This document shows, piece by piece, positions 59,963 to 63,479 of a stretch of 64,000 nt of DNA. Numbering within the stretch: the first letter of the stretch is position 1; each line of letters starts with the position of its first letter. The notes below the pieces were generated by a model. The model had not been told where the DNA came from. It saw only the letters and a list, made by a program, of their open reading frames with translations, and did not search any database. The DNA is from Prosthecobacter debontii (GTDB lineage: Bacteria > Verrucomicrobiota > Verrucomicrobiia > Verrucomicrobiales > Akkermansiaceae), in the NCBI GenBank assembly GCA_945870855.1, contig CAMBTP010000008.1:1-64000 (forward strand), given 5' to 3'. The translations under genes were made by a program, and so were the position numbers.

Positions 59963-60091
59963 AGTTGGCGAGGCAGATCATAATCCCGGACGGCGCGGAT
60001 ACCATCTCGGATTTTCATTGCTCCCGACGGCCACGCTAACATGCAGTTCAAAAAAACTTGAACAAAGCGTTATGCCTGTTAGTAACGGGGT

Positions 60092-60604
60092 GTGGAATCG
60101 CCCTCACCTGATACCAGAACGAGCTCCTTCGGCCTCACGACGTTGCAGCGGGAGGTGGTGGATTTTTTCGTGGACGGCGTGAAAGTGCTGGGTTTGCCGA
60201 GATCGCTTGGGGAAATTTATGGTTTGCTTTTCATTACGACCGCACCCCTCTCGCTCGACGACCTAGTGCGGGATCTGGGGATTTCCAAAGGCTCGGCGAG
60301 CCAAGGTTTGCGAATGCTGCGGACGCTTGGCGCGGTGCGCGAGGCTGCCGGGAATGGCGACCGGCGCACATATTACGAGCCCGCTGTGGATCTGAAAAAA
60401 TTGGTCGGCGGCTTCATTCGTGAGCAGGTGCGCCCTCATCTAGATAGCGGGAAAATAAAGCTCCGATTCATTGCGGAAACCGCCAGCCTCACCGCTGATC
60501 CCGTGGACAAAGAGTTTTTCAACGATCGCATCGAGCGCCTCGAATCCTGGATGAAGCGCGGCGGCCAGGTGCTACCGATGTTGCAGAAAATTCTCGGCCA
60601 ATGA
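60092..60604 (+). CDS. GbsR/MarR-type transcriptional regulator (GTG start)
   Basis: wHTH: LVRDLGISKGSASQGLRMLRTLGAVREA. Confidence 0.85.
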   Translation: MESPSPDTRTSSFGLTTLQREVVDFFVDGVKVLGLPRSLGEIYGLLFITTAPLSLDDLVRDLGISKGSASQGLRMLRTLGAVREAAGNGDRRTYYEPAVDLKKLVGGFIREQVRPHLDSGKIKLRFIAETASLTADPVDKEFFNDRIERLESWMKRGGQVLPMLQKILGQ

Positions 60605-61161
60605 CTCTCCTCGAAACAGATAAGCACCGTTGGTTTTGCGTCCGCACGCAGACGAAGCGGGAGCATATCGCCGCGAAGCATCTGCGGGAATTAGAGGGCG
60701 TGGAGGTGTTCTGCCCCCGCATGAGATACCGCAGGGCTACGCGGCGCGGGAAAGTCTGGTGGCTGGAACCCCTTTTCCCCGGATACTTGCTGGCGAAGTT
60801 CGACCGCAACGAAATGGAACGCGCAGTGACCTTTTGCCAAGGAGTGCGCGGCCTCGTCCGCTTCGGCACGGAAATCCCCGATATTCCCGATGCCACGGTG
60901 CGAAACCTCATCCGCCAGGTGCGCGAGCAGGCTGGCGGGGAAGGGGAAGAGGAGATGATCACCATCGCGCCCTCCATCTCTGTCGGGGACGAAGTGGAAG
61001 TAGCCACTGGCCCCTTCCAAGGCATGAAAGGGATCATCCGCAGCGTCGCTCCAGCCACCGAGCGCGTGAAGGTACTCCTGGAATTTCTCGGCCAAATCCA
61101 ACCCGTCGATCTCGATCTTTTCTCCATTTTAACCGCTAGCAAGCCGATCCCAAACTTCTGA
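60601..61161 (+). CDS. RfaH/NusG-like transcription antiterminator paralog
   Basis: HRWFCVRTQTKREHIAAKHL; EPLFPGYLLAKFD; GVRGLVRFG; C-terminal KOW. Confidence 0.92.
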   Translation: MTLLETDKHRWFCVRTQTKREHIAAKHLRELEGVEVFCPRMRYRRATRRGKVWWLEPLFPGYLLAKFDRNEMERAVTFCQGVRGLVRFGTEIPDIPDATVRNLIRQVREQAGGEGEEEMITIAPSISVGDEVEVATGPFQGMKGIIRSVAPATERVKVLLEFLGQIQPVDLDLFSILTASKPIPNF

Positions 61162-61288
61162 TTTGTTCATTTTTCATTGAACTGATCGCCTTTCCGCATC
61201 ACCATAGAAACCGCCTCCTCGCCCACCGGGGAAAATCAATATCTACAAATACCAACCACAGGTTTTTTCCCAGAAAACGGGGAAATCG

Positions 61289-61312
61289 ACCAAGGGCGGT
61301 AGCGTGCTTGGT
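61289..61312 (+). promoter_or_regulatory. ops-like element ACCAAG-GGCGGTAGCGTG-CTTGGT
   Basis: Exact 12-mer GGCGGTAGCGTG at 61295-61306, enclosed by a 6-bp inverted repeat, downstream of the RfaH-like gene. Confidence 0.75.
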
Positions 61313-61355
61313 AGCAACCTTCGGGCGCCCACCATTATCTTTCGCTAACCAAGTT

Positions 61356-62501
61356 TTGAAATTCCTCATCGTCGGAGCTGGCTTCTCGGGACTGGTCGCC
61401 GCACATCGGCTCTCCAACGCCGGACATGATTGCGTGGTGGTCGATAAGCGCCCGCACCTCGCAGGCAACGCCCACGATTCCTACGACAAAGCCGGCGTCC
61501 TGATCCACAATTACGGCCCACATTATTTTCGGACAAACTCCGAACGCATCCTCGAATACCTCTCCACCTTCACCGGCTGGAATCCCGTCGATTACACGAT
61601 CCAATCCTTCACCGAGGGCAAATTCTGGCCCTTTCCGATCAATCTCAACACCTTCGAGAAACTCATCGGGAAACCAGCGACCACCGCTGATTTTGAGCAA
61701 TACCTCGCCGCAAACCGCCTCAATATCCCCGATCCGAAAAATTCCGAGGAAGTTATCCTCTCACAAGTCGGCGCGCGCCTCTACGAACTATTTTTCGAGG
61801 GCTACACACTGAAACAATGGAAGCGCCATCCACGCGAGCTTGATCCCTCCGTCTGCGGGCGTATCCCCATCCGCACCAACCGCGACGACCGCTACCTCTC
61901 CGAAACTTTCCAGGCACTCCCCGACAAAGGCTACACTCACCTGCTCGAAAACATCCTCGCCGCCAGCCCGAATACCACGCTCCACCTCAACACCGATTTC
62001 ATCGAGGCACGGGAAAAATTCCCCCACGACCACCTCATCTTCACCGGAGCCATCGACGAATACTTTGGTAGGAAATACGGCTCGCTGCCTTACCGCTCGC
62101 TCCGTTTCGACCACGAATCCTTCACCGCCGCCGAGCTCGTCCCACGCGAAAAAATTTCCGGGAAACCCGGTTTCTGGCAGCCCGCCATGCAAGTGAATTA
62201 CCCAGGGAAAGACATCCCCTTCACGCGCATCGTCGAGATCAAACACGCCACTGGGCAAAAAATCGACGCCACCACGATCGTCCGCGAATTCCCCGAGGAC
62301 TGGGACGTATCCAAAGAACCCTACTACCCTATCCCCGCCCCCGACGCTGCCGCCGCTTACCAAAAATACGCCGCCCTCGCCGCCGTAGAAACGAACACGA
62401 CCTTCATCGGTCGCCTCGCCACTTACCGCTATTATAATATGGATCAGGTCACCGGCATGGCACTCGTTGCAGCGGAAAAGCTCATCAAGCGCTTCGCCTG
62501 A
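61356..62501 (+). CDS. glf: UDP-galactopyranose mutase (probable TTG start)
   Basis: LKFLIVGAGFSGLVAAHRL; YNMDQVTGMAL. Confidence 0.95.
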   Translation: MKFLIVGAGFSGLVAAHRLSNAGHDCVVVDKRPHLAGNAHDSYDKAGVLIHNYGPHYFRTNSERILEYLSTFTGWNPVDYTIQSFTEGKFWPFPINLNTFEKLIGKPATTADFEQYLAANRLNIPDPKNSEEVILSQVGARLYELFFEGYTLKQWKRHPRELDPSVCGRIPIRTNRDDRYLSETFQALPDKGYTHLLENILAASPNTTLHLNTDFIEAREKFPHDHLIFTGAIDEYFGRKYGSLPYRSLRFDHESFTAAELVPREKISGKPGFWQPAMQVNYPGKDIPFTRIVEIKHATGQKIDATTIVREFPEDWDVSKEPYYPIPAPDAAAAYQKYAALAAVETNTTFIGRLATYRYYNMDQVTGMALVAAEKLIKRFA

Positions 62502-62546: not shown

Positions 62547-63479
62547 ATGAAGACTTTCATCTCCGGACACCGCGGCATGGTTGGCTCCGCCCTTGTCCGC
62601 AAAGCCGAATCGCTCGGCCTAGAAACGCTCACCGCCAGCCGCGCCGAGCTCGATCTTACTTCGCAGCCTGAGGTTTTCGCGTTTCTCGAAAAACACAAGC
62701 CTGCCACAGTGATCATCGCGGCGGCGAAGGTCGGCGGCATCCACGCAAACTCCACCTACCCCGCCGATTTCATCTACGAGAACCTAGCCATCGCCGCAAA
62801 TCTCATCGAGGGCTCCCGCCGTGCTGGCGTGCCGCGCGTGCTTTTCCTCGGCTCCTCCTGCATTTATCCAAAAATGGCTCCGCAGCCCATGCCGGAAAGC
62901 TGCCTGCTCACTTCGCCGCTCGAAGTGACGAACGAGGCTTACGCAATAGCCAAGATCGCCGGGCTGAAAATGTGCCAGCACTACCGCGCCCAGCACGGCC
63001 TGCTCTTCCACTCCGCCATGCCAACCAATCTCTACGGCCCGGGCGACAACTACCACGCAGAAAACTCCCACGTCATCCCCGCCCTCATCCGCCGTTTCCA
63101 TGAAGCGAAAGTAGCCAACGCGCCCTCCGTCACGATCTGGGGCACCGGCACCCCTTGCCGCGAGTTCCTTCATACCGACGACCTCGCCGCGGCCTGCTTC
63201 CACCTCCTTTCCCTAGAAAACCCACCTGACTGGGTCAACGTCGGCACCGGCACGGACCTCACCATCCTCGATCTCGCCAAGCTCGTAGCGAAAACCATCG
63301 GCTACCCCGGCGAGATTCTAACAGACCCCACCAAGCCCGATGGGACGCCGAAAAAACTGCTCGATATCTCGCTCATCCAGTCCACCGGCTGGTCCCCGGA
63401 AATCCCTTTTGAAAGTGGCCTCGCCGGAGCCTATCAGGATTTCCTCGCATCCCTAGAAAGCGGCGCAGCGCGGCTGTGA
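62547..63479 (+). CDS. fcl: GDP-L-fucose synthase
   Basis: [32 protein letters not shown]. Confidence 0.95.

Follow-up and report, generated by a model that had tools for sequence, protein, structure and literature searches.

Here we describe a conserved leader element of about 46 nt in Prosthecobacter debontii, at positions 61261 to 61306 of the 64,000-nt stretch of contig that was analyzed (the window), the 3′ part of which is an ops-like 12-mer. We consider it very probable that this element is a composite JUMPstart/ops-like pause-and-recruitment signal which serves a distinct NusG paralog, in cis and in trans, in the leaders of surface-polysaccharide operons; the pausing, binding, exclusion of NusG and antitermination that such a role entails are what we infer from the arrangement. 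The element itself, its conservation, its covariation, its linkage to the paralog and the positions of these features are established by computation. An earlier note on this DNA had proposed an ops-like element tied to a NusG paralog, before polysaccharide genes, in a phylum distant from the Proteobacteria, and this core of the proposal holds, although the interpretation as a whole is only partly supported.

The locus and its regulatory setting

The features of the locus are as follows.

60046..60063, unstranded: GTTCA-N8-TGAAC inverted repeat, a probable operator preceding the operon of regulator and paralog (repeat counts, relatives)
60092..60604, + strand: gene for a MarR/GbsR-like DNA-binding regulator (NCBIfam CudC and Pfam MarR_2 matches are weak, neither reaching its cut-off)
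60601..61161, + strand: gene for a specialised NusG paralog (NGN and KOW domains), the presumed recruited factor (Pfam NusG, 54.5 bits)
61165..61182, unstranded: second GTTCA-N8-TGAAC, between paralog and element (repeat counts, relatives)
61261..61291, + strand: upstream hairpin (covariation in relatives; match to RNA model R1)
61292..61294, + strand: AAG spacer from hairpin to 12-mer (position weights)
61295..61306, + strand: ops-like 12-mer, GGCGGTAGCGTG (relatives' consensus GGCGG[C/T]AGC[G/N]T[G/N])
61356..62501, + strand: glf (UDP-galactopyranose mutase), first gene past the element (TIGR00031 at 292.8 bits, just short of its cut-off; Pfam GLF)
62547..63479, + strand: fcl, GDP-L-fucose synthase (NF047922, 456 bits against a cut-off of 500; Pfam Epimerase)

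The 12-mer lies exactly where the earlier note had placed an ops-like core, and it is the single exact copy of GGCGGTAGCGTG across the 2.98-Mb genome, both strands having been searched. Since about one exact copy is expected by chance at the base composition of this genome (an estimate), the exact 12-mer alone proves nothing; its weight rests on conservation and not on the exact match. The stop codon of the paralog gene precedes the 12-mer by 134 bp, as had been noted, and glf and fcl, which had been placed downstream, were both identified by profile matches. The conserved N-terminus of Glf begins at a TTG codon 49 nt past the 12-mer. The regulator gene, which belongs to a gene cluster (c2) found in 47 named loci, overlaps the start of the paralog gene by 4 bp.

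Beyond fcl, the locus encodes a VanZ-like protein, GDP-mannose dehydratase, a cytidylyltransferase-like protein, a WecG-type glycosyltransferase, UDP-glucose dehydrogenase, an APS kinase, a PAPS-reductase-domain protein and an EF-Tu-like GTPase. We read the last three, by position and sequence, as probable CysC, CysD and CysN, and the presence of such genes suggests that the polysaccharide is sulfated. These three genes, on the same contig past the end of the window (L321:10167-13752), stand beside GDP-fucose and UDP-galactofuranose genes, and they recur in relatives (clusters c3, c8 and c9).

The inverted repeat GTTCA-N8-TGAAC occurs twice in the window, against 0.06 copies expected, and at four sites genome-wide. 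Among 78 named relatives, 76 have TTCA-N8/9-TGAA ahead of the regulator gene, where the first repeat lies; the repeat between paralog and element was found in 23 of 79. From these repeats we take GTTCA-N8-TGAAC to be probably the operator of the MarR/GbsR-like regulator, and the region of the second repeat is a probable operator/promoter region of the polysaccharide operon. A sigma-70 scan of the + strand between paralog and element found no promoter.

A Shine-Dalgarno-like sequence precedes the chosen start in only 2 of the 34 large open reading frames of the window and in 0 to 3% of members of seven gene families from relatives' polysaccharide loci, and translation in this lineage seems to start largely without one. 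Its absence before glf was considered as an RfaH-like sign of ribosome recruitment and rejected, given that 32 of the 34 window genes likewise lack it.

Conservation of the 12-mer and of an upstream hairpin

In most of the 30 loci first examined, GACCAAGGGCGG[C/T]AGCGTG lies 85 to 220 bp past the paralog gene on the same strand. Across 145 genomes of the family, the motif GACCANGGGCGGYAGCNTN gave 128 strict sites in 80 genomes, and its reversed form, as a control, gave none. With no motif preset, the 10-mers of the element proved to be the most shared sequences in the 300 bp past the paralog (36 of 77 loci), compared to at most 6 loci in the random-stretch control. The earlier note had named a lack of conservation in orthologous leaders as one outcome that would overturn the proposal; the element is conserved there. 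When one mismatch was allowed, the element was found in 52 of the 77 leaders, compared to 34 of 1,540 random stretches.

In the position weights, for which matches were picked at no more than one mismatch (the unbiased check being the preset-free 10-mer count), ops positions G2, C3, G4, G5, A7, G8, C9 and T11 are kept, as in an ops element; G4, G5 and A7 are invariant, and conservation drops to near zero past position 12. Thymine at position 6, by contrast, does not hold across leaders: of the 52, 37 have C, 14 have T (the window among them) and 1 has A, such that T6, the E. coli letter, is the minority form and C6 the commoner one. Both forms occur within single genomes (G013, G061 and G014).

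The earlier note had also enclosed the 12-mer in a hairpin formed by ACCAAG (61289 to 61294) and CTTGGT (61307 to 61312). The two halves are complementary, but this is private to the window; in 61 non-redundant relatives, 2.03 of the 6 positions pair on average, compared to 2.05 with shuffled partners, and we therefore reject this outer stem as coincidental. The conserved hairpin lies upstream instead, at 61261 to 61291, so that the element as a whole consists of a covarying hairpin (GGUU...UC-GACC), then AAG, and then GGCGG[C/T]AGCGTG. In its outer stem, GGUU (61261 to 61264) pairs with GACC (61288 to 61291), with a UC bulge at 61286 to 61287; the inner stem is formed by 61266 to 61271 with 61280 to 61285.

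Covariation was assessed in an alignment of 23 rows of equal length (A4; in the MAFFT alignments A2 and A3, the 5′ arm was out of place). In this alignment, 94.9% of cells were paired, compared to 78.8% after shuffling (0 of 500 shuffles as high) and 24 to 56% with slid partners, although the 23 rows were chosen partly by predicted folding and so lean toward structure, which the shuffle and slide controls offset only partly. Changes on both sides were seen in 7 of the 11 pairs. The third outer pair changes from U-A to C-G in family f12 (GGC/GCC), and in the inner stem pairing is kept while the sequence is not conserved. On the opposite strand the conserved U-G pairs would turn into A-C mismatches, which points to a hairpin that would act in the transcript or in the non-template strand.

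An RNA model of hairpin plus 12-mer (R1), built only from Verrucomicrobiota, scored 55.6 bits on the window (E = 6e-14) and also found the E. coli K-12 wza and rfb JUMPstart sites (21.3 bits, E = 2.5e-4). The JUMPstart model RF01707 gave 13.6 bits on the window, below its gathering cut-off of 35, and 55.2 bits on the E. coli rfaQ (waaQ) site used as a control. JUMPstart is also recognized by a stem-loop that immediately precedes the 12-mer on its 5′ side, within the leader of polysaccharide genes, and such a stem-loop is present.

The NusG paralog and its linkage to the element

Orthologs of the paralog were found in 114 of the 145 family genomes, and 79 of the 80 element-bearing genomes carry it. 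Of the 128 sites, 62 lie just past the paralog on the same strand, mostly at 85 to 260 bp; the other 66 are elsewhere in the genome, in 42 genomes. Several of these unlinked sites precede, in single genomes, genes for ABC-2 export, Wzz, a flippase, a DegT aminotransferase, an MBOAT protein or a nucleotide-sugar dehydrogenase, and a few are not followed directly by any annotated polysaccharide gene. The two are also absent together: all 19 genomes of genus g3 lack both the paralog and any GACCANGGGCGGYAGCNTN site, as does G111, the sole paralog-less genome of the window's own genus, for paralog and element.

In a set of 388 genomes from the phylum, with the paralog called at 76 bits or more (presumed housekeeping NusG proteins score 42 to 54 bits), it was found in 86 genomes, spread over many families. 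At E ≤ 1e-4, R1 found the full element in 39 genomes. The co-occurrence that the earlier note had suggested as a check is strict, in that all 39 carry the paralog and none of the 302 paralog-less genomes has the element (P = 7e-30, a value that is too small, since the genomes share ancestry and their independence is overstated). The element lies 50 to 300 bp past the paralog in families f2, f12, f23, f26 and f30. At the same E value, 47 of the 86 paralog genomes, mostly from other families, gave no element.

The earlier note had called the neighboring gene RfaH-like. It does encode a NusG paralog, but not RfaH as judged by curated score, contact residues or tree group. The protein scored 72.3 bits against RfaH (TIGR01955; cut-off, 144.5), 71.5 against UpxY (NF033644; cut-off, 100), 57.7 against LoaP (NF033641; cut-off, 125) and 51.8 against housekeeping NusG (TIGR00922; cut-off, 135.7); a separate match, G000:C17, is taken as the housekeeping nusG. 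The ops-contact residues of E. coli RfaH, namely, K10, H20, R23 and R73 (PMC5995543), align to Q, H, L/E and Q in the paralogs, so that only H20 is mostly kept. With three of the four base contacts replaced, reading of the 12-mer must either differ from that by RfaH or rest on the RNA hairpin. AlphaFold2 predicts a C-terminal domain of beta strands, forming a beta-barrel (mean pLDDT, 85), and not the alpha-helical hairpin of autoinhibited RfaH. NusG and RfaH in its fully recruited form are among the solved structures closest to the paralog, and its closest named homologs include RfaH from E. coli and from proteobacterial plasmids.

A 43-row tree (with NusG_L356, probably a wrong reading frame, ignored) gathers the element-bearing paralogs into a single group from Verrucomicrobiota and places RfaH of E. 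coli with proteobacterial RfaH and three Verrucomicrobiota proteins; UpxY and LoaP are not among the rows, which leaves room for an RfaH ancestry of the paralog. The three proteins (L265, L266 and L267) have no element nearby and possibly represent another recruitment mode or transferred RfaH. On a Mesorhizobium plasmid (L345:1417-3407), a NusG paralog gene directly precedes nucleotide-sugar dehydrogenase and epimerase genes, a layout like that of the window, with the R1 element absent.

Readings of the element and known systems

In the composite-signal reading that we favor, the nascent RNA would fold the hairpin as the leader is transcribed, its base lying 3 nt before the 12-mer. The 12-mer would be a consensus pause, at which the small G2-C9 hairpin of E. 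coli ops could arise in the non-template strand. The neighbor-encoded paralog may then join the paused complex via either or both of the non-template 12-mer and the RNA hairpin, stay on RNA polymerase instead of NusG, and sustain transcription of the long operon. It would act in cis on the adjoining operon, and many species would have additional element-bearing polysaccharide operons on which it acts in trans.

It is possible, albeit on balance doubtful, that the paralog reads mainly the RNA hairpin, with the 12-mer serving as a pause that gives loading time; LoaP offers a precedent, in that a leader hairpin is bound and a downstream pause helps (PMC12691694). The covariation and conserved geometry of the hairpin, the missing RfaH base-contact residues, and the occurrence of both C and T at position 6, in some cases in the same genome, would all be in keeping with this. 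However, the sequence of the inner stem is free, yet G4, G5 and A7 of the 12-mer are invariant, and a pause consensus needs none of these three bases. We conclude that the element would be read via the 12-mer, the RNA hairpin, or both.

We regard it as improbable that the element is a hairpin-stabilized pause which couples transcription to translation or timing, with the NusG paralog uninvolved. The 12-mer does fit a consensus pause, and the hairpin ends 14 nt before position 11, near the usual spacing of hairpin pauses, but strict co-occurrence, joint absence in genus g3 and G111, and conserved adjacency all argue for involvement of the paralog. Horizontal movement of a true rfaH with its ops from Proteobacteria, which the nearest named homologs might suggest, is very improbable, given that the element-bearing paralogs form a group of their own apart from RfaH, that the paralog is present in many families, and that R1 found no element at six proteobacterial plasmid NusG-paralog loci. 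Finally, a chance occurrence of the 12-mer, for which the expected single copy per genome would allow, has a negligible probability and is refuted by the empty reversed control, the covariation, the preset-free 10-mers and the excess of leaders over random stretches.

RfaH has been described as mostly limited to Proteobacteria, and how cis-encoded paralogs are recruited has been described as unknown (PMC7593976); in a literature consisting mostly of papers available without subscription, we found no description of an ops-like element in Verrucomicrobiota. We tentatively suggest, at somewhat less than even confidence, that this is a second ops system, in which a paralog family without fold-switching autoinhibition, an RNA hairpin together with a non-template DNA hairpin, C or T at position 6, and action both in cis and in trans are combined phylum-wide. 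If so, it would answer what recognizes ops-like hairpins that lack T6, and it could stand for a state that predates RfaH or arose in parallel with it. A control system described so far for E. coli and its relatives seems to exist in a second version of different construction, whose natural variants (C6 for T6, other contact residues) lend themselves to testing how NusG paralogs find their operons.

With the E. coli ops/JUMPstart element (RF01707), the Verrucomicrobiota element shares the 12-mer core, a stem-loop directly upstream (JUMPstart stem-loops have been reported in gamma-Proteobacteria [PMC2864571]), the setting in a polysaccharide-operon leader, and the end of conservation at position 12. 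The non-template hairpin of E. coli ops lies inside the 12-mer (PMC5995543, PMC11001881); cryo-EM of the ops-paused complex shows it built from G2:C9, C3:G8 and G4:A7, and these stem bases are kept in the relatives. The two differ in the preference for C6 over T6, in the hairpin, which has 11 pairs, a UC bulge and a GGUU/GACC base in Verrucomicrobiota and a 5-pair stem in E. coli JUMPstart, and in two extra nucleotides between hairpin and GGGCGG in the former.

Like RfaH (TIGR01955, PRK09014), the factor is a NusG paralog with NGN and KOW domains, an ops-like signal and, in several genomes, unlinked targets. However, it scores below the curated cut-offs, has K10, R23 and R73 replaced and a C-terminal domain predicted as a beta-barrel, is encoded beside a target operon, and falls in a separate tree group. 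UpxY, the capsule antiterminator of Bacteroides, is likewise a NusG paralog that heads a polysaccharide locus, and the paralog's UpxY score is nearly equal to its RfaH score. UpxY acts in the leader that precedes its own gene (PMC7819879), whereas the Verrucomicrobiota element is downstream of the paralog gene; the passages on UpxY that were considered mention no ops-like site. With the dfn leader of LoaP, finally, the element shares an RNA hairpin, help from a pause and a tie to a NusG paralog (PMC12691694), but the hairpin of dfn carries a UNCG loop and stands apart from its pause, whereas in Verrucomicrobiota hairpin and pause form one unit. The element would in this way unite the DNA-based mode of RfaH and the RNA-hairpin mode of LoaP.
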